From Crossaster papposus (Eukaryota; Echinodermata; Asteroidea; Velatida; Solasteridae), in the NCBI GenBank assembly GCA_037893245.1, contig JBAIAA010000510.1, positions 744,001 through 808,000 of the forward strand: a DNA stretch of 64,000 nucleotides, given 5' to 3'. The notes below the pieces were generated by a model. It was given only the letters and a program-made list of their open reading frames with translations. It had not been told where the DNA came from and searched no databases. Made by a program: the position numbers and the translations under genes. Positions 4,826 through 64,000 of the stretch are shown piece after piece. Position 1 is the first letter of the stretch, and every line of letters starts with the position of its first letter.

Positions 4826-4897
4826 TGCGCGGTGGCCAAGTGGTAAGGCGTCTGTTTCGTAAACAGAAGATCGAGGGTTCGAACCCCTCTCGCGCCT
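4826..4897 (+). tRNA. tRNA-Thr(CGT), T-type, first copy
   Basis: Folds as a standard 72-base tRNA body: acceptor GGCGCGG/TCGCGCC (here base 1 is T, so pair 1-72 is lost), D arm GCC/GGC around AAGTGGTAA, anticodon stem TCTGT/ACAGA around loop TTCGTAA, variable loop AGATC, T arm GAGGG/CCCTC around TTCGAAC, discriminator T. Anticodon CGT reads ACG, threonine. The A box (TGGCCAAGTGG) and B box (GGTTCGAACCC) match Pol III promoters, and GTTTTTAAAAC follows at once as terminator. No intron, no encoded CCA. The sequence closely resembles vertebrate tRNA-Thr(CGT) as I remember it. Confidence 0.85.
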
Positions 4898-4984
4898 TGT
4901 TTTTAAAACAATTTTAATCTGAATAACGTGAATTACAAGAACTTGCTTTTAGAAAGTTTTCATGTATGAGTCCATTAACGGCGA

Positions 4985-5056
4985 GGAGCTGTGTCCAAGT
5001 TGTAACTCGTCTATCTCGTGAACAGAAGCTAGAGGGTTTGAATCCCTCTCGTGCCA
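4985..5056 (+). pseudogene. D-type tRNA-Thr-like copy
   Basis: 72 bases in tRNA register. The 5' acceptor GGAGCTG pairs poorly with TCGTGCC (mismatches at pairs 3 and 6), the D stem is broken, and the anticodon stem TCTAT/ACAGA has an A-C pair. Loop CTCGTGA gives anticodon CGT. The B box carries a change here (GGTTTGAATCC). No T-run follows within 30 bases. Confidence 0.8.
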
Positions 5057-5140
5057 ATTATTGTTAAAGTTGAATAACATAACATGAATTACAAGAACTT
5101 GATATTAGAAAGTGTTCATGTATGAGTTCATTAACGGCGA

Positions 5141-5212
5141 GGAGCAGTGGCCAAGTTGTAACTCGTCTATCTCGTGAACAGAAGCTAGAGGGTTCGAATC
5201 CCTCTCGTGCCA
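5141..5212 (+). pseudogene. D-type tRNA-Thr-like copy
   Basis: Second D copy in the first unit, acceptor GGAGCAG against TCGTGCC. The B box GGTTCGAATCC is intact. The duplicated D segment explains the 535-bp first interval. Confidence 0.8.
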
Positions 5213-5246
5213 ATTATTGTTAAAGTTGAATAACACGAATTTATAG

Positions 5247-5290
5247 ATTTGTAAACAGAATATTTGGGCTTCACACCCCTCTATAGTGTC
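5247..5290 (+). pseudogene. C-type relic of a tRNA-Thr 3' half
   Basis: Reads ATTTGTAAACAGAA then a decayed T arm (GGGCTTCACACCCC), then TTTT. It aligns with the tRNA from the anticodon loop to the 3' end; nothing before it resembles a tRNA 5' half. Confidence 0.65.
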
Positions 5291-5360
5291 TTTTATTTGT
5301 AATGCTAAATATCATTAATTAATGAGATAAAGTGTTGATGTATTCGTTTATTAACCCTGA

Positions 5361-5432
5361 GGCGCGGTGGCCAAGTGGTAAGGCGTCTGTTTCGTAAACA
5401 GAAGATCGAGGGTTCGAACCCCTCTTGCGCCT
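5361..5432 (+). tRNA. tRNA-Thr(CGT)
   Basis: Acceptor end TTGCGCC adds a second G-T pair (6-67) to the usual 7-66 wobble; all other arms match consensus. The trailer GTGTTTTAAAAC has four T. Confidence 0.85.
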
Positions 5433-5520
5433 TGTGTTTTAAAACCATTTTAACCTAAATAACATGAATTACAAGGACTTGATAGTAGAAAGTGTTCATG
5501 TACGAGTTCATTCACGGCGA

Positions 5521-5592
5521 GGAGCAGTGGCCAAGTTGTAAGTCGTCTATCTCCTGAACTGAAGCTATTGGGTTCGAATCCCTCTCCTGCCA
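5521..5592 (+). pseudogene. D-type copy, anticodon CCT
   Basis: Loop CTCCTGA gives an Arg-type anticodon, inside a broken stem (TCTAT/ACTGA). Acceptor end TCCTGCC. Confidence 0.75.
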
Positions 5593-5626
5593 ATTATTGT
5601 TAAAGTTGAATAACACCAATTTATAG

Positions 5627-5668
5627 ATTCGTAAACATAATATCTGGGCTTCAGACCACTCTCCTGCC
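5627..5668 (+). pseudogene. C-type tRNA 3'-half relic
   Basis: ATTCGTAAACATAATATCTGG then a decayed T loop and CTCCTGCCTTTT. Confidence 0.6.
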
Positions 5669-5738
5669 TTTTATTTGTAATGCTAAATATCAATAATTAT
5701 TGAGAAAAAGTGTTGATGTATTTGTTTATTAACCTTGA

Positions 5739-5810
5739 GGCGCGGTGGCCAAGTGGTAAGGCGTCTGTTTCGTAAACATCAGATCGAGGGTTCGAACCCC
5801 TCTCGCGCCT
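5739..5810 (+). tRNA. tRNA-Thr(CGT), damaged anticodon stem
   Basis: The anticodon stem 3' side is ACATC, so two of five pairs are lost; everything else is consensus. Probably a pseudogene in progress. Confidence 0.6.
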
Positions 5811-5897
5811 TGTTTTTAAAACCATTTTAAGCTGAATAACATGAATTACAAGGACTTGATATCAGAAAGTGTTCATGTATGATTTCATTAACGGCGA

Positions 5898-5969
5898 GGA
5901 GATGTGTCCAAGTTGTAACTCGTCTATCTCGTGATCAGAAGCTAGAGGGTTCGAATCCCTCTCGTGCCA
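5898..5969 (+). pseudogene. D-type tRNA-Thr-like copy
   Basis: Acceptor GGAGATG; anticodon arm TCTAT-CTCGTGA-TCAGA. The B box is intact. Confidence 0.75.
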
Positions 5970-6003
5970 ATTATTGTTAAAGTTGAATAACACGAATTTA
6001 TAG

Positions 6004-6045
6004 TTTCGTAAACAGAATATCTGGGCTTCAGACCCCTCTCATGCC
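6004..6045 (+). pseudogene. C-type tRNA 3'-half relic
   Basis: TTCGTAAACAGAATATCTGG, then CTTCAGACC, then CTCATGCC and TTTT. Confidence 0.6.
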
Positions 6046-6115
6046 TTTTATTTGTAATGCTAAATATCATTAATTAATGAGATAAAGTGTTGATGTATTC
6101 GTTTATTAACCCTGA

Positions 6116-6187
6116 GGCGCGGTGGCCAAGTGGTAAGGCGTCTGTTTCGTAAACAGAAGATCGATGGTTCGAACCCCTCTCGCGCCT
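6116..6187 (+). tRNA. tRNA-Thr(CGT)
   Basis: T-stem pair 51-63 is lost (GATGG against CCCTC), which also alters the start of the B box. Trailer AGTTTTTAAAAC. Confidence 0.75.
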
Positions 6188-6274
6188 AGTTTTTAAAACA
6201 ATTTTAAGCTGAATAACATGAATTACAAGAACTTGCTTTTAGAAAGTGTTCATGTATGATTTCATTAATGTCGA

Positions 6275-6346
6275 GGAGCTGTGGCCACGTTGTAAGTCGT
6301 CTATCTCCTGAACTGAAGCTATTGGGTTCGAATCCCTCTCCTGCCA
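6275..6346 (+). pseudogene. D-type copy, anticodon CCT
   Basis: Same CTCCTGA loop as the copy at 5521, with CCACGTTG in the A-box region. Shared lesions show the two units are sisters. Confidence 0.75.
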
Positions 6347-6380
6347 ATTATTGTTAAAGTTGAATAACACCAATTTATAG

Positions 6381-6424
6381 ATTCGTAAACATAATATCTG
6401 GGCTTCACACCCCTCTATAGTGTC
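6381..6424 (+). pseudogene. C-type tRNA 3'-half relic
   Basis: ATTCGTAAACATAATATCTGG, decayed T arm, then TTTT. Confidence 0.6.
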
Positions 6425-6494
6425 TTTTATTTGTAATGCTAAATATCATTAATTAATGAGATAAAGTGTTGATGTATTCGTTTATTAACCCTGA

Positions 6495-6566
6495 GGCGCG
6501 GTGGCCAAGTGGTAAGGCGTCTGTTTCGTAAACAGAAGATCGATGGTTCGAACCCCTCTCGCGCCT
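6495..6566 (+). tRNA. tRNA-Thr(CGT)
   Basis: Identical to the copy at 6116, including the GATGG T-stem change: a recent unit duplication. Confidence 0.75.
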
Positions 6567-6653
6567 AGTTTTTAAAACAATTTTAAGCTGAATAACATGA
6601 ATTACAAGAACTTGCTTTTAGAAAGTGTTCATGTATGATTTCATTAATGTCGA

Positions 6654-6725
6654 GGAGCTGTGGCCACGTTGTAAGTCGTCTATCTCGTAAACAGAAGCTA
6701 GAGGGTTCGAATCCCTCTCGTGCCA
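6654..6725 (+). pseudogene. D-type tRNA-Thr-like copy
   Basis: Anticodon loop CTCGTAA, closer to the T type than other D copies (position 37 is A). The acceptor stem is still broken. Confidence 0.75.
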
Positions 6726-6753
6726 ATTATTGTTGAATAACAGGAATTTATAG

Positions 6754-6795
6754 ATTCGTAAACAGAATATATGGGCTTCAGACCCCTCTCATTCC
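6754..6795 (+). pseudogene. C-type tRNA 3'-half relic
   Basis: ATTCGTAAACAGAATATATGG, then CTTCAGACC and CATTCCTTTT. Confidence 0.6.
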
Positions 6796-6865
6796 TTTTA
6801 TTTGTAATGCTAAATATCATTAATTAATGAGATAAAGTGTTGATGTATTCGTTTATTAACCCTGA

Positions 6866-6937
6866 GGCGCGTTGGCCAAGTGGTAAGGCGTCTGTTTCGT
6901 AAACAGAAGATCGACGTTTCGAACCCCTCTCGCTCCT
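6866..6937 (+). pseudogene. decayed T-type tRNA-Thr(CGT)
   Basis: Acceptor GGCGCGT against TCGCTCC and T stem GACGT against CCCTC both carry mismatches, and the B box is damaged. The anticodon arm is intact. Confidence 0.7.
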
Positions 6938-7024
6938 ATTTTTAAAAAAAAAATTAAGCTGAATAACATGAATTACAAGAACTTGCTTTTAGAAAGAGTT
7001 CATGTATGATTTCATTAACGTCGA

Positions 7025-7096
7025 GGAGCTGTGGCCAAGTTGTAAGTCGTCTATCTCGTGAACAGAAGCTAGAGGATTCGAATCCCTCTCGTGCCA
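7025..7096 (+). pseudogene. last D-type copy of the plus array
   Basis: Complete D copy; its 3' flank ATTATTGTCAAAGTTGAATA runs into the spacer repeat at 7113, cutting off the C relic. Confidence 0.75.
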
Positions 7097-7112
7097 ATTA
7101 TTGTCAAAGTTG

Positions 7113-7190
7113 AATAGTAAAGTATTTGCATCGCTGCTTTGTTCGGACTCCAGAGTCCACATTTGATCTTAGGTATGGGTAGAAGGATTC
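7113..7190. repeat. direct repeat, copy 1 (78 bp)
   Basis: Starts AATAGTAAAGTATTTGCATC and recurs with the same sequence at 7380-7457. It contains the 15-bp terminal repeat of the adjoining element. Confidence 0.9.
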
Positions 7191-7383
7191 GAGCGTAGAG
7201 ACTATAGAATCCGAACAGCAGGACCAACCAGTATGGGGAGGGTGGGTGGGATAAATTTTGGATCTTACCTGTCCTCGGAGCGACAAACCAAAGGCTTCTT
7301 CGACTTACCGTTCTCTCTCGTAGTGACCAAATTCACAAAGTGAATGTGGATCTTCCGACCGCTACGTCGCAGCGATGCAAATA
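7123..7383. mobile_element. 261-bp element with 15-bp perfect terminal inverted repeats
   Basis: Ends are TATTTGCATCGCTGC (7123-7137) and its exact reverse complement (7369-7383). GTAAAG, within a longer shared ATAGTAAAG, lies just outside each end (7117-7122, 7384-7389), as a target-site duplication would. No coding frame of note. A MITE-like reading is reasonable; the superfamily is not identified. Confidence 0.6.
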
Positions 7384-7385
7384 GT
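7328..7385. repeat. 58-bp terminal repeat, left copy
   Basis: Identical to 16344-16401. It includes TTCACAAAGTGAA and the 15-bp terminal repeat. Confidence 0.9.
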
Positions 7386-7404
7386 AAAGTATTTGCATCG
7401 CTGC
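7369..7404. repeat. perfect 15-bp hairpin
   Basis: GCAGCGATGCAAATA, loop GTAAAG, then the exact reverse complement. It forms where the right end of one terminal-repeat element meets the left end of the next. Confidence 0.9.
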
Positions 7405-7457
7405 TTTGTTCGGACTCCAGAGTCCACATTTGATCTTAGGTATGGGTAGAAGGATTC
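7380..7457. repeat. direct repeat, copy 2 (78 bp)
   Basis: Second copy of 7113-7190, 267 bp further on. It is the left end of the 9-kb spacer body that finishes at 16399. Confidence 0.9.
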
Positions 7458-8339
7458 TTCGCTCCGATTTTAGACCCCCAATCCAACCCACTATTCTCTC
7501 TTCCTCTACCCCACAACCCCCATCCCATCCCATATCTCATCCCATTTCTCAGCCCTAATCTTACCCGTGATTATCCTCGGGATACACAGCCTTTGCCACC
7601 AATAGTTTTTGTATCGATTTGTCTACCAGTTAATGGTCTTGATGTGTTGTTCCCTGCCGACAGGATTCTCTAGCCGCTAAACCTCAAATGAGGACAAGCC
7701 CATGTTTTGCAGGTACCATCCTTGTTTGCACACTACCGCAAGGCGTTTGGCAACTTTTACTATTCCTCATAGAGCCGTCTCAAGCTGCCTTACCTTTCTG
7801 CATTGTACCTTTTCTCATTGTTCCCTTACTGCTGTAGCCGACCAATTCTTAATTTCGCTTTGTCACACGGTGTCGCCTCATCAGCCCTTGGCATGTTGCA
7901 AAATAGTGAAGGCCTGGACTACCCCGAGATGGATTGTAGCACCTCGACCATTCTTACAATGCACATAGTTTGTCTTCGTCTCGACGACATATATACATGC
8001 TGAAATCTGAGCTGCCTAAAACGACCTCTCGTCTTGCCCGTCAGCAAATTTCGAGTGAAAACCGCTTTCTCACCGAGCCCATCCATCGGCGAAATTTGGC
8101 CGCCGTCCATTATACCTCCAGGTTGCTTCAAATTAAAGGACATCCTCATCCCAGTCGACCAGCGCTATCCGAATTCCCTCAAATGCTAAATGATATGTTG
8201 TACCATATAAATTGGACTTGTGTAAATTTAAACTAGAGCATCATAAATAAATCAACCCCAACCGAATACAAGTGGATCCATTTCAATTTCCGCTGCGCCG
8301 ACTACTCCCTCTATCTATTAGATCGATGAGAAATCTGAG
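7458..8339. other. spacer DNA without a recognised gene
   Basis: Short open frames only, none with a recognisable domain. It could be remnant 5' LINE sequence, but no RT core motif was found. Confidence 0.4.
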
Positions 8340-8800
8340 ATCACCTCTAGGTATCAACATTCAGAGTAATCTGAGCTGGAACAGTCAGACCCGACATGCA
8401 GCATTCAAAGCTACCCTCATCTTGAACTTCTTCATGCGAAACTTCTACCTAGCCTCAAAAGGCTGCCAAGGAGAAGTTGTACACTGCCTTAGTTAGACCA
8501 AACCTTGAGTAGAGGTTTCCCGCTTTGTCTGTGGTGATTTCTCAAGAGGAAGTAGCGTCTCAAAAAATGCTGGCAAACTAATGCTGGTTATAACTGTAAG
8601 ATAGAAGGAAAGCGAACCAACTCACCTACATATACAAAATCCTCCACAACATATTGTTAAAATTAAACCTACCGTCCTGAAATCAAAACTTTACTTGACT
8701 GCGCAGGGGGAACAACGAACAAATCAATGAAATCACAGCCAACACTAACATTTACCTTTAGTCCTTTCTTCCCAAAATTGTGAGAAAGTGGAACAAGCAA
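8340..8800 (+). mobile_element. decayed non-LTR retrotransposon, RT C-terminal part
   Basis: Pieces of a CR1/Jockey-like reverse transcriptase tail read in order on the plus strand, in shifting frames: LGINIQSNLSWN near 8347, FMRNFYLASKGC near 8432, EKLYTALVRPNLE near 8470 (a stop replaces the Tyr usual after LE), YKILHNILLK near 8632, FFPKIVRKWNK near 8767. Order and spacing match the end of the ORF2 protein. At least two frameshifts and several stops show it is dead. Family identification is from memory of conserved motifs. Confidence 0.75.
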
Positions 8801-8832
8801 CAAAAGGAAACAAGCAACAAAAGGAAACAAGC
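8793..8832. repeat. 17-bp direct repeat x 2
   Basis: caacaaaaggaaacaag occurs twice in a row just after the LINE relic. Confidence 0.8.
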
Positions 8833-9230
8833 AAAATGCAGCATACTGTGGCGGGAACTCCCCAGGCCAACCTAAGGCTGTTAGGATAAGTCGGACACCT
8901 ATTAAACCGACGGCAATCTTCCCAACCCAAGGCTCTTCCCTATACGAGAGATCACTCAGAGCAACCTAAAGGCTAAGGGTGCAGGTCCGTTTTGGTGGAC
9001 ATATACCACCGATTATGATGATGGCGATTACTCTCTGTTAATTACACAATAAACCTGTGAACAAAGACACCTTATTGTCGGTATAGGCCTACAAAGATCA
9101 ACAATGATGATATATTCTCAACAATCAATACAATGTACGATAATTACGATTCAATTGGGGCTGTTTCATTTCCTGATTTCTAAATTACTGGGGAGGAAAA
9201 CCTACTGCTTACAGCAGCAACGCGCAACCG
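8833..9230. other. spacer DNA, nothing recognised
   Basis: No coding frame or structural RNA is supported. Confidence 0.4.
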
Positions 9231-9472
9231 CATCAACAATGTGCAACGCCATGCGCAACGCGCGACAGCATCAACAATGTGCAACGCCATGCGCAACGCC
9301 CAACTACGTAATGTCCAACAGCATACGCAGTGCACAACAGCATACGCAGTGTACTGCAGCATACGCAATGTACTACCACATACGCAATGTACTACAGCAT
9401 ATACAATGCACTATAGCGTACATAATGTATTATAGCATATACAATGCACCACAGCATATACAATGCACTAGT
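9231..9472. repeat. degenerate minisatellite, about 20-bp unit
   Basis: About ten units of the form cagcatacgcaatgtactac, drifting from GC-rich (caacgccatgcgcaacgc) on the left to AT-rich (agcatatacaatgcacta) on the right. The left part holds a 38-bp duplication (about 9231 and 9269). Confidence 0.8.
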
Positions 9473-11330
9473 GGTGTGCGCAATGTACGTACAACTCAGA
9501 ACACAAGTCGTGAACCTACATGTACTGTACTTCTTCCAGTGGCGCGGCACTCCACCAACTAACCATGAACACGCATTACGTACCACCCAGGTAAACACGT
9601 ACACCATGTAAAAACACCTACATGTACATGTACTTACACCTATAGGCTTTGTTACACAATCTCGTGCATTCACGCAGCGAGTCACTGAGCGGTAAGCTCC
9701 GCCCAGCCAGCGCGCGCAACTACAGGTCACGTACGCCCTGGGTTACATTTCATTCACAAGGTTATAATTACAATAGCATAACAGCACTAAGTCATTGCAC
9801 TTTCCGTCACAATGCCATTAACTTTGGGAGCACCAAGCTTCGACGGCAAAACAGAGTGGACGAAATTAGTCTGACCTGTTACTTACCAGCCTCACTGGAC
9901 TGCTGGGCAGAATCTCCGTGTTATTTCGTTTAAAACAATACTCACAATCTCCAATACTTTCTAGATGTCCCTTCTTCATCGTGACCCCTTCAATTGGTGC
10001 GCCAGACGAGGCCATTGTTTTAAAGAGTACCCAATGATGTGCTTTCACTTCTGATGTGCCAAAGTTCTAAACCTGACTTGCATCCTTCCAGTGCTTGCTA
10101 CAGCACTCTCCCACTTCAATGCATCATGGTCCTTCCTGTAAAGTATTCTTATGCAAAATCGGTTAGCTCAGCTAAAAATTTAAAATATATCTACTGATGC
10201 ATGCTAGCCCCAAAGTATTCAAAATCACGATTTACCTTCTCCTTATGATTGATTAGCCGACAGTGGCCTTGATATTTATCTCCTGATAATGCGCTTTGCC
10301 TAAATCATTTTGCGGCCTGCTTCCTTTATTTACGGTACTCATTCCCCAATTATTATTTCCCCGAGAGGTTTTATTATCTCATTGCTATAACCGGGGTTTA
10401 TCCCCTCATTTGTTGTTTGCTTTATTTCTTAAACTTCACTGTTATTTGCAAGACAAAACCGTGGACATCAAAATTCATCGATTGGGCCACGCCCGCCATA
10501 GTGAGTGTCTTGTAGCGTGACGTGGGCATGGCCAAACACTTGCACAGTGCAATTTTAACCTTCGTGTAATTTCATACAAGCAGGTAACTAAAACCTTGAA
10601 GTGCTCAAATGTTTCCTTTCCTCTTTATTAACAGTGATGGGGGTCGCATTTACAAACGAAAAACCCCAACCATTACTAAAACCAAGTGGGTATAATTTGC
10701 CTACAAGTGAAATACGTTAACTCAACCCAAGTGCAGAAAATCACGCTAAGGCGAAGAATCCCGCCGGAAGCATAGCGACCAATTGGTCAGACGTCAAAAT
10801 CATGCAATGCGAGTTGTCGACCTCCCGAGAATCTGTGGCCACTGAATCGGCCTATCTAGCTTACATTTAAGGGGAATACAGAATACACATAAATAACCCC
10901 GTGCTATTTAAACTGGGGCTGTTGCCCCCATTGTCGTGCCTCTGTTTTATTAGGCAATATCTACAACCTACAAGCGTCAAACCTTATACGTTTTAGATCC
11001 AATTTACCATAAATACCCGCTTCATTATTCATTTCATCTTTCTTGACTATTTTATGTTGGTATTGCCTCGCTCCTGTTTTGTCTTCTATTGTAACAACCT
11101 TGACTTCCTATTGCTGTCTAAGTAATATTCATAACCCTTTGCTTGCCCTTGTTTGTTGCTTTGTGGCTTTATTACATTATTACATTATCCTACTTTCTGC
11201 ACAAGAATATTGTTCGTTTGTTGCCATTCGTGGCCGAATAACTAATACAACATATAAAACATAACAGATACCTTTACCTGCCTTCTTAATTCACTGGGGC
11301 TATTCCCCTTTTTATAAATACATTATTACA
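9473..11330. other. spacer DNA, nothing recognised
   Basis: No domain-bearing frame. Several TACATGTACATGTAC-like palindromic words occur near 9590-9640. Confidence 0.4.
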
Positions 11331-11895
11331 AATTGGGCCTTTCCCAACCTCTGCCTTGTGCCTTCGCCAACATCAATATCTGGGGCTCTTCCCCACATCG
11401 ATCTCTGGGGCTTTTCCCCACATCGATCTCTGGGGCTTTTCCCCACATCGATCTCTGGGGCTTTTCCCCGCATTTTTTTCTGGGGCCTTTCCCCCACCTT
11501 TCTGCCTTGGGCCTTTCCCCACATCAATGTCTGGTTTTGTCCACATTAAACTCTGGGTTTTGGTCTCACATTAATCTCTGGCTTTTCCCCACATCTATAC
11601 ATCTATACATCTATACATCTACACATTCTATACATATCTCCCTGGTGCCTTTCCCCACATTAACATCCGAGCCTTTTCCTCACATTAAAATCTAGGTTTT
11701 TCCTTACATTTAATTCCTTGCTTTTTCCCATTTCTCTGGGGCCTTTCCCCATCTCAACCTGGGGCCTTTCCCCCACCTCTCAGCCTGGGGCCTTTCACCA
11801 CATCTATTTCTGGGGATTTTTCCCCGCATCGATCTCCGGGGCTTTTCCCCACATCGATCTCCGGGGCTTTTTTCCACATCGATCTCAATTTATAT
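11331..11895. repeat. hairpin minisatellite, 25-bp unit
   Basis: The core copies (11383-11470) repeat TCTGGGGCTTTTCCCCACAT plus CGATC exactly; outer copies are degenerate. Each unit contains the inverted repeat TGGGG-CTTTT-CCCCA. Confidence 0.9.
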
Positions 11896-12009
11896 CTTTG
11901 TATATGGGGCTTTCTATTTCATGCCTATCAACGGTGCTTTTGACCATTCATGTCTACAAATCAGGTTTTCCACCTGTCAAAAATAAAAATATTTTTCTGT
12001 TGCTCTCCA

Positions 12010-12545
12010 CCTCATTTTCATGAATGGGACTTTTCACCTCTTTTCCATGAATGGGACTTTTCACCTCTTTTCTATGAATGGGGGTTTTCACCTCATTTCT
12101 ATGAATGGGGGTTTTCACCTCATTTCTATGAATGGGGATTTTCACCTCAATTCTATGAATGGGGCTTTTCACCTCAATTCTATGAATGGGGCTTTTCACC
12201 TCATCTCTATGAATGGGGCTTTTTACCTCATTTCTATGAATGGGGCTTTTTAGCTCATTTGTATGATTGGGGCTTTTTACCTCATTTCTATGAATGGGTC
12301 TTTTTACCTCATTTCTATGAATGGGGCTTTTTACCTCATTTCTATGAATGGGGCTTTTTACCTCATTTCTTATAAATGGCTTTTCACCCCATTTTTTATG
12401 AATGGTTTTTCACCTCATTTGTATGAATGGCTTTTCACCTCATTTTGTATGAATGACTTTTCATCTCATTTTGTATAAACGGGGCGTCTCACTTCATTTT
12501 TATGAATGGCTTTTTATGTCATTTTGTATAAACGGGGCTTTTCCC
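12010..12545. repeat. minisatellite, 27-bp unit, about 19 copies
   Basis: Unit is ATGAATGGGGCTTTTCACCT plus CATTTCT. It shares the GGGGCTTTT core with the 25-bp satellite next to it. The period of 27 keeps several frames open (MNGAFYLIS repeats); no start context or domain supports a protein. Confidence 0.9.
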
Positions 12546-13054
12546 TGTCTATACCATGGTTACCTAAAGCATCCCCAAAAAATCTAAACAGAATTTTGGA
12601 GAAACCACAACACTCCGGAAAACACTAAACACCACAAAAGAAGGGGGAGGGGTTACCTCTGTTCCATCTCTTGCTTACCATGAAACTTGTTAGAGAAAAC
12701 AATAAAACCAACCGCAAAACTTGCCAGCCCTCTTATCTATTTTATACCCTAGTCTAAACACACATCCCCATGGGGTATGTTACTCTGCTAATGCCACAAC
12801 ACTGCCCTGCCTATGTACACATTATGTACCGCATATCTTGGATTAGCAGCAGTATCGCCTAACAGGAGTCAGTTAAAGACATAGAAATTCACAAGATAAG
12901 ATTCACAGTTAGAAGTTCTTGACATCGGGCTTAAATTAAACTACTTCCTCCACACTGACGTACCTAAATTTAGGCAAATGCTTATCACCGGTAACCTTTG
13001 TTTATAATTTTGCATCTTGACATGCGCATCTACTGCATAATATCAACTGTAAGA

Positions 13055-13081
13055 TTTTTTATTTATTTATTTATTTATTTT
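13055..13081. repeat. (ATTT)n microsatellite
   Basis: Five to six ATTT units after a T-run. Confidence 0.9.
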
Positions 13082-13251
13082 CCCAACAGTTTAACTGCAG
13101 CAAATTTGTTCGGCTTAAACCGACTCATTCCAAACATGCCTTAGTTGATAAAAGTATTATGCAGTAATATAATCCTTTATTAGGGTCAACAAAACATTAT
13201 TTCCGATTTTGGAAACAAACATACCATGGTGGCAACTTTCGTTAAGGTAAA

Positions 13252-13282
13252 CCATGGAGGAATAATTCTTATTCCTCCATGG
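13252..13282. repeat. perfect 14-bp hairpin
   Basis: CCATGGAGGAATAA, loop TTC, then the exact reverse complement. GGTAAAC-type words lie on both sides. Confidence 0.85.
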
Positions 13283-55315: not shown

Positions 55316-55812
55316 TGTGGGAAATTATGCGGTCTCCACAATAGTCTTGATCCGAAAGATTAACTCACCAAGCAAGTTGCGAAGTCCGTGGCACCAGGCA
55401 CGTGGTCCGTGTGGTAGCGTGCACCGGGGGTGTTCTGGCCCGCGAGCACGGGGCCGATTCACGGCGAGTGTTTGCTTGAGTTCCCGCTAACGACAGTTAG
55501 TGCAATAATGGCTGGCGTAGACTAGTTCAAAAATGCACACGACGAAAAGTAATCACACTTAACAGTAGTAACAGGCAAAAACTTGGCACAAAAAGGTAAA
55601 TATAACACAACAAAACTAGCGACGACCGAGGAGATTTTACGCACGAGACACTGGTGTTCCTAGCGACACCCAAGATGTGGTAAAACCGTGTGTTAGTTCG
55701 TGTGCCCAGGTCAGGTAACTCCAACGAACGAAAAAGGTCTCCTATGGCGGGCCGAATGTATCAAAGTTTCTATGGAGGGCCGCATCCACCATTATTAGAA
55801 AGTGTCACTACA
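55316..55812. mobile_element. solo LTR, copy 1 (497 bp)
   Basis: Non-array, GC-richer sequence starting TGTGGGAAATTATGCGG and ending CACTACA, so TG...CA ended. AACT lies on both sides (55312-55315 and 55813-55816) as a 4-bp target-site duplication; removing the insert restores the array word gttaatgaactcatac. No internal retroelement coding is present, as expected for a solo LTR. A 4-bp duplication would suit a Ty3/gypsy-type element. Orientation is not settled. Just left of it the array jumps back from ctaaaagca to gagctcctcg, a separate rearrangement. Confidence 0.75.
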
Positions 55813-55887
55813 AACTCATACATGAACACTTTCTAAAAGCAAGTTCTTGTAATTCATGTTAATTAGCTTAAAATTGTTTTAAAAACA

Positions 55888-55959
55888 AGGCGCGAGAGGG
55901 GTTCGAACCCTCGATCTTCTGTTTACGAAACAGACGCCTTACCACTAGGCCACCACGCC
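55888..55959 (-). tRNA. tRNA-Thr(CGT)
   Basis: T14 in the D loop and T5-G68 wobble in the acceptor. First T gene right of the LTR. Confidence 0.78.
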
Positions 55960-56264
55960 TCAAGGTTAATAAACGAATACATCAACACTTTTTCTAATTA
56001 TTTCATCATATTTAGCATTACAAATAAAAGGCATGAGAGTGGTCTGAAGCCCAGATATTCTGTTTACAAATCTATAAATTCCTGTTATTCAACTTTAACA
56101 ATAATAGGCACGAGAGGTATTCGAACCCTCTAGCTTCTGTTCACGAGATAGACGACTTACAACTTGGCCACAGCTCCTCGCCGTTAATGAACTGATACAT
56201 GAACACTTTCTAAAAGCAAGTTCTTGTAATTCATGTTAATTAGCTTAAAATTGTTTTAAAAACA

Positions 56265-56336
56265 AGGCGCGAGAGGGGTTCGAACCCTCGATCTTCTGTT
56301 TACGAAACAGACGCCTTACCACTTGGCCACCGCGCC
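56265..56336 (-). tRNA. tRNA-Thr(CGT)
   Basis: Consensus; T5 trailer. Confidence 0.92.
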
Positions 56337-56641
56337 TCAAGGTTAATAAACAAATACATCAACACTTTTTCTCATTAATTATTGATATTTAGCATTACAA
56401 ATAAGAGGCATGAGAGTGGTCTGAAGCCCAGATATTCTGTTTACGAATCTATAAATTCGTGTTATTCAACTTCAACAATAATTGGCATGAGAGGTATTCG
56501 AACCCTCTAGCTTCTGTTCACGAGATAGACGACTTACAACTTGGCCACAGCTACTCGCCGTTAATGAACTCATACATGAACACTTTCTAAAAGCAAGTTC
56601 TTGTAATTCATGTTAATTAGCTTAAAATTGTTTTAAAAACA

Positions 56642-56713
56642 AGGCGCGAGAGGGGTTCGAACCCTTGATCTTCTGTTTACGAAACAGACGCCTTACAACT
56701 TGGCCACCGCGCC
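56642..56713 (-). tRNA. tRNA-Thr(CGT)
   Basis: D loop AAGTTGTAA as in D copies and A49-C65 mismatch: partly converted towards the D type. Confidence 0.75.
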
Positions 56714-56859
56714 TCAAGGTTAATAAACAAATACATCAACACTTTTTCTCATTAATTATTAACATTTAGCATAACAAATAAAAGGCATCAGAGTGGTCTG
56801 AAGCCCAGATATTCTGTTTACGAATCTATGAATTCGTGTTATTCAACTTTAACAATAAT

Positions 56860-56931
56860 TGGCACGAGAGGTATTCGAACCCTCGATCTTCTGTTTACGA
56901 AACAGACGCCTTGCCACTTGGCCACCGCGCC
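56860..56931 (-). tRNA. chimeric T/D tRNA-Thr(CGT)
   Basis: The 5' part through the anticodon arm and variable loop is T type, while the 3' end (AATACCTC, TCGTGCC, discriminator A) is D type. The acceptor GGCGCGG/TCGTGCC still pairs (two G-T wobbles); G53-A61 is a mismatch. Only 218 bp from the previous T gene. No T-run trailer. Confidence 0.75.
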
Positions 56932-57236
56932 TCAGGGTTAATAAACAAATACACCAACACTTTTTCTCATTAATTATTGATATTTAGCATTACAAATAAG
57001 AGGCATGAGAGTGGTCTGAAGCCCAGATATTCTGTTTACGAATCTATAAATTCGTGTTATTCAACTTTAACAATAATTGGCACGAGAGGTATTCGAACCC
57101 TCTAGCTTCTGTTCACGAGATAGACGACTTACAACTTGGCCACAGCTCCTCGCCGTTAATGAACTCATACATGAACACTTTCTAAAAGCAAGTTCTTGTA
57201 ATTCATGTTAATTAGCTTAAAATTGTTTTAAAAACA

Positions 57237-57308
57237 AGGCGCGAGAGGGGTTCGAACCCTCGATCTTCTGTTTACGAAACAGACGCCTTACCACTTGGCC
57301 ACCGCGCC
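57237..57308 (-). tRNA. tRNA-Thr(CGT)
   Basis: Consensus; T5 trailer. Confidence 0.92.
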
Positions 57309-57613
57309 TCAAGGTTAATAAACAAATACATCAACACTTTTTCTCATTAATTATTAATATTTAGCATAACAAATAAAAGGCATCAGAGTGGTCTGAAGCC
57401 CAGATATTCTGTTTACGAATCTATGAATTCGTGTTATTCAACTTTAACAATAATTGGCACGAGAGGTATACGAACCCCCTAGATTCTGTTCACGAGATAG
57501 ACGACTTACAACTTGGCCACAGCTACTCGCCGTTAATGAACTCATACATGAACACTTTCTAAAAGCAAGTTCTTGTAATTCATGTTAATTAGCTTAAAAT
57601 TGTTTTAAAAACA

Positions 57614-57685
57614 AGGCGCGAGAGGGGTTCGAACCCTTGATCTTCTGTTTACGAAACAGACGCCTTACAACTTGGCCACCGCGCC
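57614..57685 (-). tRNA. tRNA-Thr(CGT)
   Basis: D-like D loop and A49-C65, as at 56642. Confidence 0.75.
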
Positions 57686-57831
57686 TCAAGGTTAATAAAC
57701 AAATACATCAACACTTTTTCTCATTAATTATTAACATTTAGCATAACAAATAAAAGGCATCAGAGTGGTCTGAAGCCCAGATATTCTGTTTACGAATCTA
57801 TGAATTCGTGTTATTCAACTTTAACAATAAT

Positions 57832-57903
57832 TGGCACGAGAGGTATTCGAACCCTCGATCTTCTGTTTACGAAACAGACGCCTTGCCACTTGGCCACTGC
57901 GCC
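57832..57903 (-). tRNA. chimeric T/D tRNA-Thr(CGT)
   Basis: Same chimera as at 56860, plus A6-C67 in the acceptor. Confidence 0.7.
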
Positions 57904-58208
57904 TCAGGGTTAATAAACAAATACACCAACACTTTTTCTCATTAATTATTAATATTTAGCATTACAAATAAAAGGCATGAGAGTGGTCTGAAGCCCAGAT
58001 ATTCTGTTTACGAATCTATAAATTCGTGTTATTCAACTTTAACAATAATTGGCACGAGAGGTATTCGAACCCTCTAGCTTCTGTTCACGAGATAGACGAC
58101 TTACAACTTGGCCACAGCTCCTCGCCGTTAATTAACTAATACATGAACACTTTATAAAAGCAAGTTCTTGTAACTCATGTTAATTAGCTTTAAATTGTTT
58201 TAAAAACA

Positions 58209-58280
58209 AGGCGCGAGAGGGGTTCGAACCCTCGATCTTCTGTTTACGAAATAGACGCCTTACCACTTGGCCACTGCGCC
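58209..58280 (-). tRNA. tRNA-Thr(CGT)
   Basis: A30-C40 and A6-C67; counterpart of 50434. Confidence 0.72.
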
Positions 58281-58583
58281 TCAAAGTTAATATACAAATA
58301 CATCAACACTTTTTCTCATAATTATTGATATTTAGCATTACAAATAAAAGGCATGAGAGTGGTCTGAAGCCCAGATATTCTGTTTACAAATCTATAAATT
58401 CGTGTTATTCAACTTTAACAATAATTGGCACGAGAGGGATTCGAACCCTTTAGCTTCTGTTCACGAGATAGTCGACTTACAACTTGGCCACAGCTTTTCG
58501 CGTTAATGAACTCATAAATGAACACTTTCTAATATCAAGTCGTTGTAATTCATGTTATTCAGCTTTAAATGGTTTTAAAAACC

Positions 58584-58655
58584 AGGCGCGAGAGGGGTTC
58601 GAACCCTCGATCTTCTGTTTACGAAACAGACGCCTTACCACTTGGCCACCGCGCC
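58584..58655 (-). tRNA. tRNA-Thr(CGT)
   Basis: Consensus; counterpart of 50809. Confidence 0.92.
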
Positions 58656-58960
58656 TCAAGGTTAATAAACGAATACATCAACACTTTTTCTAATTAATTC
58701 ATCATATTTAGCATTACAAATAAAAGGCATGAGAGTGGTCTGAAGCCCAGATATTCTGTTTACAAATCTATAAATTCGTGTTATTCAACTTTAACAATAA
58801 TTGGCACGAGAGGTATTCGAACCCTCTAGCTTCTGTTCACGAGATAGAAGACTTACAACTTGGCCACAGCTCCTCGCCGTTAATTAACTCATACATGAAC
58901 ACTTTCTAAAAGCAAGTTCTTGTAATTCATGTTAATTAGCTTAAAATGGTTTTAAAAACA

Positions 58961-59032
58961 AGGCGCGAGAGGGGTTCGAACCCTCGATCTTCTGTTTACG
59001 AAACAGACGCCTTACCACTTGGCCACCGCGCC
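58961..59032 (-). tRNA. tRNA-Thr(CGT)
   Basis: Consensus; counterpart of 51186. Confidence 0.92.
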
Positions 59033-59337
59033 TCAAGGTTAATAAACGAATACATCAACACTTTTTCTAATTAATTCATCATATTTAGCATTACAAATAA
59101 AAGGCATGAGAGTGGTCTGAAGCCCAGATATTCTGTTTACGAATCTATAAATTTGTGTTATTCAAATTTAACAATAATTGGCACGAGAGGTATTCGAACC
59201 ATTTAGCTTCTGTTCACGAGATAGACGACTTACAACGTAGCCACAGCTCTTCGACGTAAATGTACTCATAAATGAACAGGATCTAATATCAAGTCGTTGT
59301 AATTCATGTTATTCAGCTTTAAATGGTTTTAAAAACC

Positions 59338-59409
59338 AGGCGTGAGAGGGGTTCGAACCCTCGATCTTCTGTTTACGAAACAGACGCCTTACCACTTGGC
59401 CACCGCGCC
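59338..59409 (-). tRNA. tRNA-Thr(CGT)
   Basis: C5-A68; counterpart of 52701. Confidence 0.8.
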
Positions 59410-59714
59410 TCAAGGTTAATAGACGAATACATCAACACTTTTTCTAATTATTTCATCATATTTAGCATTACAAATAAAAGGCATGAGAGTGGTCTGAAGC
59501 CCAGATATTCTGTTTACAAATCTATAAATTCGTGTTATTCAACTTTAACAATAATAGGCACGAGAGGTATTCGAACCCTCTAGCTTCTGTTCACGAGATA
59601 GACGACTTACAACTTGGCCACAGCTCCTCGCCGTTAATGAACTCATACATGAACACTTTCTAATATCAAGTCGTTGTAATTCATGTTATTCAGCTTTAAA
59701 TGGTTTTAAAAACC

Positions 59715-59786
59715 AGGCGTGAGAGGGGTTCGAACCCTCGATCTTCTGTTTACGAAACAGACGCCTTACCACTTGGCCACCGCGCC
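59715..59786 (-). tRNA. tRNA-Thr(CGT)
   Basis: C5-A68; counterpart of 53078. Confidence 0.8.
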
Positions 59787-60091
59787 TCAAGGTTAATAGA
59801 CGAATACATCAACACTTTTTCTAATTATTTCATCATATTTAGCATTACAAATAAAAGGCATGAGAGTGGTCTGAAGCCCAGATATTCTGTTTACAAATCT
59901 ATAAATTCGTGTTATTCAACTTTAACAATAATAGGCACGAGAGGTATTCGAACCCTCTAGCTTCTGTTCACGAGATAGACGACTTACAACTTGGCCACAG
60001 CTCCTCGCCGTTAATGAACTCATACATGAACACTTTCTAAAAGCAAGTTCTTGTAATTCATGTTAATTAGCTTAAAATTGTTTTAAAAACA

Positions 60092-60163
60092 AGGCGCGAG
60101 AGGGGTTCGAACCCTCGATCTTCTGTTTACGAAACAGACGCCTTACCACTTGGCCACCGCGCC
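60092..60163 (-). tRNA. tRNA-Thr(CGT)
   Basis: Consensus; counterpart of 53455. Confidence 0.92.
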
Positions 60164-60467
60164 TCAAGGTTAATAAACAAATACATCAACACTTTTTCTC
60201 ATTAATTATTAATATTTAGCATAACAAATAAAAGGCATCAGAGTGGTCTGAAGCCCAGATATTCTGTTTACGAATCTATGAATTCGTGTTATTCAACTTT
60301 AACAATAATTGGCACGAGAGGTATACGAACCCCCTAGATTCTGTTCACGAGATAGACGACTTACAACTTGGCCACAGCTCCTCGCCGTTAATGAACTGAT
60401 ACATGAACACTTTCTAAAAGGAAGTTCTTGTAATTCATGTTAATTAGCTTAAATTGTTTTTAAAAAA

Positions 60468-60539
60468 AGGCGCGAGAGGTGTTCGAACCCTCGATCTTCT
60501 GTTTACGAAACAGACGCCTTACCACTTGGCCACCGCGCC
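60468..60539 (-). tRNA. tRNA-Thr(CGT)
   Basis: G53-A61, T7 run; counterpart of 53831. Confidence 0.82.
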
Positions 60540-60844
60540 TCAAGGTTAATAAGCAAATACACCAACACTTTTTCTCATTAATTATTGATATTTAGCATTA
60601 CAAATAAAAGGCATGAGAATGGTCTGAAGCCCAGATATTCTGTTTACGAATCTATAAATTCGTGTTATTCAACTTTAACAATAATTGGCACGAGAGGTAT
60701 TCGAACCCTCTAGCTTCTGTTCTCGAGATAGACGACTTACAACTTGGCCACAGCTCCTCGCCTTTAATGAACTAATACATGAACACTTTCTAAAAGCAAG
60801 TTCTTGTAATTCATGTTAATTAGCTTAAAATTGTTTTAAAAACA

Positions 60845-60916
60845 AGGCGCGAGAGGGGTTCGAACCCTCGATCTTCTGTTTACGAAACAGACGCCTTACC
60901 ACTAGGCCACCGCGCC
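60845..60916 (-). tRNA. tRNA-Thr(CGT)
   Basis: T14; counterpart of 54208. Confidence 0.8.
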
Positions 60917-61221
60917 TCAAGGTTAATAAACGAATACATCAACACTTTTTCTCATTAATTATTAATATTTAGCATTACAAATAAAAGGCATCAGAGGGTT
61001 CTGAAGCCCAGATATTCTGTTTACGAATCTATGAATTCGTGTTATTCAACTTTAACAATAATTGGCACGAGAGGGATTCGAACCCTTTAGCTTCTGTTCA
61101 CGAGATAGTCGACTTACAACTTGGCCACAGCTACTCGCCGTTAATGAACTCATAAATGAATACTTTCTAATATCAAGTCGTTGTAATTCATGTTATTCAG
61201 CTTAAAATGGTTTTAAAAACC

Positions 61222-61293
61222 AGGCGCGAGAAGGGTTCGAACCCTCGATCTTCTGTTTACGAAACAGACGCCTTACCACTTGGCCACCGCGCC
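61222..61293 (-). tRNA. tRNA-Thr(CGT)
   Basis: G51-T63; counterpart of 54585. Confidence 0.88.
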
Positions 61294-61598
61294 TCAAGGT
61301 TAATAAACGAATACATCAACACTTTTTCTAATTATTTCATCATATTTAGCATTACAAATAAAAGTCATGAGAGTGGTCTGAAGCCCAGATATTCTGTTTA
61401 CAAATCTATAAATTCGTGTTATTCAACTTTAACAATAATTGGCACGAGAGGTATTCGAACCCTCTAGCTTCTGTTAACGAGATAGACGACTTACAACTTG
61501 GCCACAGCTCCTCGCCGTTAACGAACTCATACATGAACACTTTCTAAAAGCAAGTTCTTGTAATTCATGTTAATTAGCTTAAAATTGTTTTAAAAACA

Positions 61599-61670
61599 AG
61601 GCGCGAGAGGGGTTCGAACCCTCGATCTTCTGTTTACGAAACAGACGCCTTACCACTTGGCCACCGCGCC
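61599..61670 (-). tRNA. tRNA-Thr(CGT)
   Basis: Consensus; counterpart of 54962. Confidence 0.92.
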
Positions 61671-61952
61671 TCAAGGTTAATAAACAAATACATCAACACT
61701 TTTTCTCATTAATTATTGATATTTAGCATTACAAATAAAAGGCATGAGAGTGGTCTAAAGCCCAGATATTCTGTTTACGAATCTATAAATTCGTATTATT
61801 TAACTTTAACAATAATTGGCACGAGAGGTATTCGAACCCTCTAGCTTCTGTTCACGAGATAGACGACTTACAACTTGGCCACAGCTCATCGCCGTTAATG
61901 AACTCATAAATGAACACTTTCTAAAAGCAGAGCTCCTCGCCGTTAATGAACT

Positions 61953-62445
61953 TGTGGGAAATTATGCGGTCTCCACAATAGTCTTGATCCGAAAGATTAA
62001 CTCACCAAGCAAGTTGCGAAGTCCGTGGCACCAGGCACGTGGTCCGTGTGGTAGCGTGCACCGGGGGTGTTCTGGCCCGCGAGCACGGGGCCGATTCACG
62101 GCGAGTGTTTGCTTGAGTTCCCGCTAACGACAGTTAGTGCAATAATGGCTGGCGTAGACTAGTTCAAAAATGCACACGACGAAAAGTAATCACACTTAAC
62201 AGTAGTAACAGGCAAAAACTTGGCACAAAAAGGTAAATATAACACAACAAAACTAGCGACGACCGAGGAGATTTTACGCACGAGACACTGGTGTTCCTAG
62301 CGACACCCAAGATGTGGTAAAACCGTGTGTTAGTTCGTGTGCCCAGGTCAGGTAACTCCAACGAACGAAAAAGGTCTCCTATGGCGGGCCGAATGTATCA
62401 AAGTTTCTATGGAGGGCCGCATCCACCATTATTAGAAAGTGTACA
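61953..62445. mobile_element. solo LTR, copy 2 (493 bp)
   Basis: Matches copy 1 at an offset of 6637 bp with the same insertion point; it lacks 4 bases near the right end (gtgtacaaactc against gtgtcactacaaactc). It was duplicated with its surroundings and is not a second insertion. Confidence 0.75.
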
Positions 62446-62520
62446 AACTCATACATGAACACTTTCTAAAAGCAAGTTCTTGTAATTCATGTTAATTAGC
62501 TTAAAATTGTTTTAAAAACA

Positions 62521-62592
62521 AGGCGCGAGAGGGGTTCGAACCCTCGATCTTCTGTTTACGAAACAGACGCCTTACCACTAGGCCACCACGCC
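62521..62592 (-). tRNA. tRNA-Thr(CGT)
   Basis: T14 and T5-G68; counterpart of 55888. Confidence 0.78.
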
Positions 62593-62897
62593 TCAAGGTT
62601 AATAAACGAATACATCAACACTTTTTCTAATTATTTCATCATATTTAGCATTACAAATAAAAGGCATGAGAGTGGTCTGAAGCCCAGATATTCTGTTTAC
62701 AAATCTATAAATTCCTGTTATTCAACTTTAACAATAATAGGCACGAGAGGTATTCGAACCCTCTAGCTTCTGTTCACGAGATAGACGACTTACAACTTGG
62801 CCACAGCTCCTCGCCGTTAATGAACTGATACATGAACACTTTCTAAAAGCAAGTTCTTGTAATTCATGTTAATTAGCTTAAAATTGTTTTAAAAACA

Positions 62898-62969
62898 AGG
62901 CGCGAGAGGGGTTCGAACCCTCGATCTTCTGTTTACGAAACAGACGCCTTACCACTTGGCCACCGCGCC
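62898..62969 (-). tRNA. tRNA-Thr(CGT)
   Basis: Consensus; counterpart of 56265. Confidence 0.92.
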
Positions 62970-63274
62970 TCAAGGTTAATAAACAAATACATCAACACTT
63001 TTTCTCATTAATTATTGATATTTAGCATTACAAATAAGAGGCATGAGAGTGGTCTGAAGCCCAGATATTCTGTTTACGAATCTATAAATTCGTGTTATTC
63101 AACTTCAACAATAATTGGCATGAGAGGTATTCGAACCCTCTAGCTTCTGTTCACGAGATAGACGACTTACAACTTGGCCACAGCTACTCGCCGTTAATGA
63201 ACTCATACATGAACACTTTCTAAAAGCAAGTTCTTGTAATTCATGTTAATTAGCTTAAAATTGTTTTAAAAACA

Positions 63275-63346
63275 AGGCGCGAGAGGGGTTCGAACCCTTG
63301 ATCTTCTGTTTACGAAACAGACGCCTTACAACTTGGCCACCGCGCC
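63275..63346 (-). tRNA. tRNA-Thr(CGT)
   Basis: D-like D loop; counterpart of 56642. Confidence 0.75.
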
Positions 63347-63492
63347 TCAAGGTTAATAAACAAATACATCAACACTTTTTCTCATTAATTATTAACATTT
63401 AGCATAACAAATAAAAGGCATCAGAGTGGTCTGAAGCCCAGATATTCTGTTTACGAATCTATGAATTCGTGTTATTCAACTTTAACAATAAT

Positions 63493-63564
63493 TGGCACGA
63501 GAGGTATTCGAACCCTCGATCTTCTGTTTACGAAACAGACGCCTTGCCACTTGGCCACCGCGCC
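63493..63564 (-). tRNA. chimeric T/D tRNA-Thr(CGT)
   Basis: Counterpart of the chimera at 56860. Confidence 0.75.
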
Positions 63565-63869
63565 TCAGGGTTAATAAACAAATACACCAACACTTTTTCT
63601 CATTAATTATTGATATTTAGCATTACAAATAAGAGGCATGAGAGTGGTCTGAAGCCCAGATATTCTGTTTACGAATCTATAAATTCGTGTTATTCAACTT
63701 TAACAATAATTGGCACGAGAGGTATTCGAACCCTCTAGCTTCTGTTCACGAGATAGACGACTTACAACTTGGCCACAGCTCCTCGCCGTTAATGAACTCA
63801 TACATGAACACTTTCTAAAAGCAAGTTCTTGTAATTCATGTTAATTAGCTTAAAATTGTTTTAAAAACA

Positions 63870-63941
63870 AGGCGCGAGAGGGGTTCGAACCCTCGATCTT
63901 CTGTTTACGAAACAGACGCCTTACCACTTGGCCACCGCGCC
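63870..63941 (-). tRNA. tRNA-Thr(CGT)
   Basis: Consensus; counterpart of 57237. Last T gene before the window edge. Confidence 0.92.
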
Positions 63942-64000
63942 TCAAGGTTAATAAACAAATACATCAACACTTTTTCTCATTAATTATTAATATTTAGCAT

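Follow-up and report, generated by a model that had tools for sequence, protein, structure and literature searches.

A probable tRNA-derived megasatellite built on threonine tRNA genes in the sea star Crossaster papposus

A single stretch of 64,000 nucleotides of the Crossaster papposus genome (the window, on contig C510) holds 131 genes for tRNA-Thr and, according to ARAGORN, none for any other isotype. The question raised by this locus is what so many copies of one gene are for: a strong supply of one tRNA, some other role, or nothing beyond their own spread as a selfish satellite. The genes lie in two opposed arrays separated by a tRNA-free segment, as follows.

4825..7116, plus strand: short array of six tRNA-Thr(CGT) genes in units of about 377 bp with degenerate second copies (ARAGORN, Rfam, TRF)
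7117..16401, no strand: inter-array segment of 9.3 kb, free of tRNA genes, with 25- and 27-bp minisatellites (ARAGORN, TRF)
16397..64000, minus strand: main array of 377-bp units with 125 tRNA-Thr genes in the window (ARAGORN, TRF, Rfam)
55293..55812, no strand: non-array insert of about 500 bp within the main array, with a second copy from 61930 (sequence identity)

The original prediction of at least 131 threonine genes, six on the plus and 125 on the minus strand, is confirmed by ARAGORN, which places them at 4825-6938 and 16513-63942, respectively. All 131 were recovered with Rfam RF00005, at 43.6-73.4 bits. At the gathering threshold this model gave 132 matches in the window, 16 in positions 1-20000 and 116 in 20001-64000; the additional one, at 46884, is a degenerate second copy that scores 32.3 bits. 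TRF found a 377 period in 103 copies from 16397 to 55292, with more arrays up to the window end, and the minus-strand array extends as far as contig position 832264, or 88264 in window coordinates, for a total of 187 genes in 71.8 kb. A long head-to-tail array of a single unit is thus present, as expected of satellite DNA. The insert of about 500 bp occurs at five places in two C510 arrays, 100% identical across 513-520 bases, and one repeat family occupies both edges of the 9.3-kb segment (7317-7385 and 16333-16401, 95.7% alike).

Each 377-bp unit is composite, consisting of a tRNA-Thr(CGT), copy A, a degenerate second copy, B, and a remnant, C. One unit of the main array serves as an example.

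16891..16962, minus strand: copy A, tRNA-Thr(CGT) (Rfam, 68.4 bits)
16732..16803, minus strand: copy B, the second, degenerate tRNA-Thr in that unit (unit consensus 162-233)
16655..16702, minus strand: remnant C, 3′-half tRNA remnant of the same unit (consensus 263-310, by eye)

The features of a working tRNA gene are largely kept in copy A. A loose A-box pattern was matched in 116 of the 131 window genes, the strict B box (GGTTCGANNCC) in 100, and a run of four or more T no more than about 35 nt from the gene end in 126; all three elements occur together in 96. With the cloverleaf recognized by Rfam in 131/131, the earlier statement that cloverleaf, promoter boxes and T-run are mostly intact holds, and a working tRNA cluster would look the same in this respect. 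The central B-box letters GGTTCGA are found in 172 of 174 main-array units; a tighter, fixed-spacing A-box pattern, tried first, matched none of these 174, and the looser pattern was used instead. Copy B is not followed by a run of four T within 38 nt in any main-array unit for which this could be scored (156 of 174; 18 were unscorable). Origin as a tRNA-derived SINE was set aside because the copies examined, those of the window and of the fetched arrays, stand in tandem, head to tail at 377 bp; no A-rich tail was seen by eye in the unit consensus.

The original prediction of a threonine tRNA megacluster was correct but understated. A 53-base core of copy A has 2,712 matches with at most three mismatches in the 1.02-Gb genome (reversed control, 0), whose mitochondrial COX1 is that of an echinoderm; the matches listed sit on several contigs. 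The core of degenerate copy B has 2,354, a number near that of copy A, so that the pseudo-copy has been carried along in similar number. One isotype does make up the array, but this is not peculiar to threonine: the Lys-CTT core has 1,557 matches and that of initiator Met 14,825. All three isotypes counted are therefore amplified, with about 19,000 core matches combined.

The C510 arrays are nested in larger tandem macro-repeats of 120-160 kb, three copies of which lie on that contig. The flanks of sister macro-repeats are 99.87% identical across 13.2 kb, and the arrays within them have 74 and 187 genes, with one colinear block, three units long, in common. At the site of the short array, two sister C510 macro-repeats have seven and nine genes, compared with six in the window. 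Blocks of 17 units (lag 14) and of 16 units (lag 11) have been duplicated, and 111 of 174 units in the main array are distinct. Block duplication and change of array length, both characteristic of satellite DNA, are evident in these blocks and in the 74- and 187-gene arrays. So is homogenization between arrays, which have variants in common: when sets of units from four contigs (242, 24, 22 and 26 units) were compared pairwise, copy A had no fixed differences in any of the six comparisons, and over the six regions counted in the same sets there are at most two.

That the two arrays are opposed is better explained by inversion than by insertion of a transposon. Simple insertion of a transposon into one array would leave this orientation unexplained, and on contig C174 the sequence of window 6365-13618 is present in inverted orientation at 98.4% identity, an arrangement that supports inversion. 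One breakpoint there, at window 13618, falls inside the central segment, the other 2.8 kb of which were absent from the 10-kb stretch read on that contig, so that the arrangement falls short of demonstrating a clean flip from one array to the other.

Mutation of the copies was compared among the parts of the unit. Events per non-CpG site were 2.23 in copy A, 2.25 in copy B and 2.56 in the spacers (p = 0.31), and stems were broken by 87 of 179 events, compared with 79.7 ± 5.2 expected. When parsimony was applied to the main array by itself, A had 1.19 steps per site versus 1.63 in the spacers (p = 0.28). Strong purifying selection on single copies is thus unsupported, the tRNA changing about as often as the spacers and its stems not being avoided; a lower standing diversity remains. 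Diversity was 0.041 in A versus 0.081 in the pooled spacers (permutation over sites, p = 0.008) and, at non-CpG sites, 0.035 versus 0.079 (p = 0.007), and common variants at variable non-CpG sites were rarer in A (5/33 versus 43/99, Fisher p = 0.003), p-values which linkage renders too optimistic. The comparison of A with copy B (5/33 versus 14/43) gave p = 0.11, and spacer 2, of 29 bp, had a diversity equal to or below that of A in all four sets (0.017-0.044). Likewise, in a Lys-CTT array of 32 units, tRNA diversity was below that of the spacers, 0.049 versus 0.156. Since the pooled spacers hold about twice the standing diversity of the tRNA, there is room for a weak constraint at the level of the array.

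All 20 stem pairs are intact in 151 of 314 copies, and across the 314 units the anticodons include 35 TGT and six others (three AGT, and CAT, CTT and GGT); wrecked copies are under-counted in these figures, because ARAGORN genes set the limits of the units and 21 of 335 intervals were left out. In the window the anticodons are CGT in 105 genes and TGT in 26, and 13 of the latter differ from the consensus solely by C>T at the anticodon CpG. CpG sites of copy A show 4.25 events per site, compared with 2.23 at its other sites, and of these 68 events 46 are C>T or G>A. This decay suggests DNA methylation, though indirectly; methylation with silencing in most tissues is the mark of clustered tDNAs of the Arabidopsis SYY type.

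Outside the arrays there is a stand-alone, well-paired tRNA-Thr(CGT) gene (L041, 67.7 bits), whose likeness to the unit is confined to the tRNA part and which differs from the array genes in anticodon arm and acceptor stem. It was recovered solely with a pattern incompatible with the array consensus, and the count of one such gene is for this reason a minimum. A human-type Thr-CGT query, with 40 of 223 candidates scored, gave 41 of 41 rows on array-carrying contigs. Given the separate gene, ACG can probably be decoded without the array. Decayed relatives are present on contigs C605 and C1246, with a spacing of about 140-160 bp.

Of the three possibilities posed by the original prediction, the satellite is favored, on account of the 2,712 core matches, the nesting in macro-repeats, the turnover, the spacer-like frequency of events, the unspared stems and the separate Thr-CGT gene. 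The reduced standing diversity of the tRNA leaves room for supply at some stage. Judged from sequence, the arrays are probably a tRNA-derived megasatellite, grown from a Thr-CGT gene and homogenized, with copies that mutate almost freely; they resemble a growing and decaying satellite repeat more than a working gene cluster. Growth would have begun with tandem duplication of a Thr-CGT gene in a unit of about 140-160 bp, the spacing of the two decayed relatives, from which the 377-bp composite unit presumably arose. Sister arrays would then have expanded and been homogenized by unequal exchange and conversion, and the opposed arrays, acting as inverted repeats, may have promoted inversion of the segment that they enclose. 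Single copies would meanwhile have mutated nearly freely and lost CpGs. Because of this near-free mutation, and of a CpG decay suggestive of methylation, the majority of copies are probably silent or redundant. Homogenization may be biased toward intact copies.

The best of the other explanations, though an unlikely one, is a stage-specific reserve, in which arrays of several isotypes would be silent in the majority of cells and transcribed by Pol III in oocytes or early embryos, where the capacity for translation has to be established quickly. It draws on the amplification of every isotype counted, on the promoter boxes and T-run kept in most window genes, and on the reduced standing diversity of the tRNA relative to pooled spacers in both the threonine and the lysine arrays. 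Against it are the event frequency of copy A, which is like that of the pseudo-copy and the spacers, stems that are not avoided, and the units with TGT or other anticodons, some of which might misread codons if charged with threonine; moreover, threonine has four codons, of which ACG is a single one. An analogy for a gated reserve is offered by amplified oocyte-type 5S or tRNA genes. By extension, and quite speculatively, several isotypes as separate single-isotype megasatellites could form a developmentally gated reserve, silent and methylated in somatic tissue and opened in oocytes or early embryos, of which homogenization, rather than selection on single copies, would keep enough intact. 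It is still more doubtful that the arrays act in chromatin, their dense TFIIIC sites serving as boundaries or structural elements with tRNA output irrelevant. The near-universal GGTTCGA of the main array and the frequent strict B box of the window genes would suit such a role, and a human tRNA tandem repeat has been proposed as a boundary element (PMC4041453), but the units were picked by a tRNA finder that itself requires B-box letters. Mis-joined or duplicated haplotypes that inflate copy number, for which the near-identical flanks on one contig and elsewhere might speak, are very improbable, because the units differ from one another and the arrangement recurs with other array lengths and contents, in three tandem macro copies on a single contig and with the middle segment inverted on C174.

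A megasatellite of this kind may be compared with known systems, as these are described in the passages cited. The SYY cluster on Arabidopsis chromosome 1, made up of tRNA-Ser/Tyr genes, has 54 clustered tDNA-Tyr, one major sequence in 32 copies and nine minor ones totalling 22, and 16 more are dispersed (PMC12308677). Repeated tandem units, many variants and dispersed genes for the same tRNA are common to both, whereas SYY has two isotypes in tens of copies and the sea star a single isotype with thousands of core matches, as well as macro-repeats of 120-160 kb. In Entamoeba, arrays make up more than 10% of the genome, in 25 array units of at most five tRNA genes each (PMC2652664); there too tRNA genes form tandem array units, but these hold almost all tRNA genes, while here the unit has a single isotype and a separate gene exists. 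The human 1q23.3 VNTR is likewise a tRNA tandem repeat of variable copy number, but its unit measures 7.3 kb and its alleles carry 9-43 units (PMC4041453), whereas the sea star arrays are built of 377-bp units and hold 74 or 187 genes each. Very high numbers are also known from Nematostella, with more than 17,000 tRNA genes and pseudogenes, from zebrafish, in which 65% of tDNAs are clustered (PMC2888827), and from the sea star Asterias amurensis, with 14,926 and 6,779 tRNAs in two annotations (PMC10625585, PMC11090083); the cited passages of these accounts contain no single-isotype satellite organization. Among the papers listed by searches of the open-access journal literature on tRNA arrays, tRNA-derived satellites and sea-star genomes, none deals with single-isotype tRNA satellites in echinoderms.

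The locus shows how a small Pol III gene can turn into a satellite with thousands of copies, and hints at why the tRNA counts reported for sea stars are so high. It cautions that counts of tRNA genes should not be taken for tRNA supply. Since some copies look intact and many carry variants of their own, tRNA-seq could directly distinguish expressed from silent arrays, and hence show the relevance, if any, of gene number to decoding.

Two further features lie in the flank.

1791..2684, minus strand: open reading frame of 298 aa with a weak DUF7869 domain, in the macro-repeat flank (Pfam PF25273)
3362..4014, no strand: 51-bp minisatellite with a 60-bp variant (TRF)

The domain match (E = 3.8e-06, 27.1 bits, cut-off 26) is the only one, and a weak one, among the five nearby ORF translations compared with Pfam. 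The DNA at 1800-2680 recurs at 98-100% identity in ten places, three each on C510 and C185 and one each on C174, C686, C593 and C553, the last covering 683 of 881 bases, and piecewise at two places on C639.

In the window, 131 tRNAs were called by ARAGORN, exclusively threonine, and Rfam recovered every one of them together with one degenerate second copy; the original prediction of at least 131 copies, six on the plus strand and 125 on the minus strand, is thereby borne out. The anticodon is CGT in 105 genes and TGT in 26.

Threonine tRNA genes in the window (ARAGORN)
4825-6938, plus strand, 6 tRNA-Thr genes
16513-63942, minus strand, 125 tRNA-Thr genes

The arrays have a period of 377 bp in the window (TRF). 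In the consensus unit, copy A is an intact tRNA-Thr and copy B a degenerate one, and a third tRNA was recognised by eye as a remnant. In the main, minus-strand array, 172 of 174 units have a run of at least four T after copy A, and 0 of 156 scorable units have one after copy B. Among the 131 window genes, a loose A box is present in 116, a strict B box in 100 and a T-run in 126, all three occurring together in 96. A tighter, fixed-spacing A-box pattern matched none of the 174 main-array units.

The best-supported reading, which we consider probable from the sequence, is that these arrays are a tRNA-derived megasatellite. A search of 1,023,315,904 bases in 1,841 contigs with a 53-base tRNA-Thr core, allowing up to three mismatches, gave 2,712 matches (68 forward, 2,644 reverse), and the reversed control gave none genome-wide. 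A 52-base core of copy B gave 2,354 (59 forward, 2,295 reverse). Among the matches listed, about the first hundred per search for the two cores, these cores and the first BLAST matches lay on contigs C174, C185, C214, C510 (which carries the window at 744001-808000), C639, C686 and C1291.

The order of a short plus array, an interval of 8.5-9.6 kb and a long minus array occurs three times on C510.

Macro-repeat copies on C510
First copy: short plus array of 7 genes, then long minus array of 74 genes
Second copy (window): short plus array of 6 genes, then long minus array of 187 genes
Third copy: short plus array of 9 genes, then a long array, of which the stretch read reaches the first gene only

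Between the first and second copies the flanks share 99.87% identity over 13.2 kb; between the second and third they share 99.4% over 7.3 kb. This repeated arrangement and the near-identity of the flanks indicate that the arrays lie within macro-repeats of ~121 and ~159 kb. After both long arrays read to their end there is a ~1.86 kb tandem repeat (C510:668005-685673 and 832611-846874) containing an ORF, one 216-aa version of which had no match in Pfam. Another, flanking ORF encodes a DUF7869 protein (Pfam, weak match); its DNA has ten matches at 98-100% identity, on C510, C185, C174, C686, C593 and C553; fragments occur at two sites on C639, and 14 more sites show 64-67% identity. Both ends of the central segment between the opposed arrays (window 7113-7457 and 16333-16401) bear members of a single repeat family whose termini are inverted, by eye TATTTGCATCGCTGC and its complement, as of a putative DNA transposon.

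Mean unit identity inside the long array is 0.930, and it holds duplicated blocks of 17 units (lag 14) and of 16 units (lag 11). Despite almost the same flanking sequence, the two C510 long arrays have in common only one run of colinear units at 98.5% identity or more, of three units. A 500-bp insert recurs with 100% identity at five places across both arrays, and appears to be a marker of recent exchange between them.

The 500-bp insert inside the main array
Window 55293-55812, one insert
Window from 61930, another insert

Window 6365-13618, mostly central segment, is inverted on C174 at 98.4% identity. The inversion would fit recombination between opposed arrays, but one breakpoint lies inside the central segment, so the event was probably no clean flip.

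Mutation was followed in 314 units (226 distinct; C510 242, C174 24, C1291 22, C185 26), kept from 335 ARAGORN gene-to-gene intervals after 21 were left out for spacing. Copy A had 2.23 parsimony events per non-CpG site, copy B 2.25 and the pooled spacers 2.56 (copy A versus spacers, p = 0.31). Events that break stem pairs were 87 of 179, against 79.7 ± 5.2 expected for sites drawn randomly by base and CpG class. These rates and the stem-break count speak against selection on single copies; all 20 stem pairs are intact in 151 of the 314 copies. CpG sites of copy A had 4.25 events per site, 46 of 68 being C>T or G>A, an excess that would fit methylation. Weighing against the absence of single-copy selection are the halved standing diversity of copy A (0.041 versus 0.081 in pooled spacers, p = 0.008) and its fewer common variants at variable non-CpG sites (5 of 33 versus 43 of 99, p = 0.003), both p values being optimistic owing to linked sites. 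Copy B is intermediate in diversity (0.064; A versus B, p = 0.07), and the short spacer 2 is no more diverse than copy A in all four sets. Homogenisation biased to intact copies, or weak selection on the whole array, would produce the low diversity of copy A. The main rival to a megasatellite, and the most interesting alternative, is a stage-specific tRNA reserve, which we regard as unlikely.

ARAGORN reads single array copies as Met (CAT), Arg (CCT, TCG) or Lys (CTT). Such anticodons in a threonine body could lead to mistranslation if expressed.

Array copies read as other isotypes (ARAGORN)
Locus L031, on C1291
Loci L001 and L002, on C639
C510:638976-667646

An anticodon-arm pattern that calls for C as the first loop base, and that the array consensus is unable to match, was found at three places, on C415, C605 and C1246. 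The first (locus L041, C415:669101-669500) is a complete, well-paired tRNA-Thr(CGT) gene scoring 67.7 bits, outside the contigs seen to carry the array. Since its likeness to the 377-bp unit is limited to the tRNA part, there is at least one separate predicted tRNA-Thr(CGT) gene. The other two are decayed satellite relatives, ~69-73% identical to the unit over longer matches, with tRNA-like segments spaced 138 and 162 bp apart on C605 and 138 bp on C1246, perhaps reflecting an older, shorter unit of the threonine satellite.

Lys-CTT and initiator Met were counted as a control, with 41-base cores and up to three mismatches, and all three isotypes counted, Thr-CGT included, are amplified. The Lys-CTT core had 1,557 genome matches; 33 Lys genes in 174-bp units occupy 5.8 kb of C28 (C28:248501-254300, loci L044 and L045), and Lys-CTT forms a second single-isotype satellite. 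Among the matches listed, eight that differ in the anticodon arm appear to be dispersed. Initiator Met had 14,825 matches, those listed lying on C13, C146, C885 and others; judged from their positions, these cluster densely on C13, with spacings of mostly ~400 or ~800 bp, and also on C146. High tRNA counts in echinoderms were already known from annotations of Asterias amurensis, with 14,926 and 6,779 tRNAs (PMC10625585, PMC11090083), and of the sea urchin Arbacia lixula, with 3,393. The passages giving these counts say nothing on how the genes are arranged.

Contig C1841 is of mitochondrial type and encodes COX1, whose conserved stretches are as expected under code 9 (for instance FSTNHKD; codes 4, 5 and 13 give FSTKHKD). 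COX2 follows COX1. Visual inspection places ND4L in the gap between the two genes, and ND1 upstream and on the other strand. We take this genetic code and gene order to be echinoderm and compatible with sea stars. Mitochondrial gene order is reported as identical among the sea stars compared (PMC6262923). COX1 matches on another contig, C8 (~2.87 and ~5.21 Mb), have no in-frame stops in the standard code; C8 is taken as a candidate bacterial contig, symbiont or contaminant.
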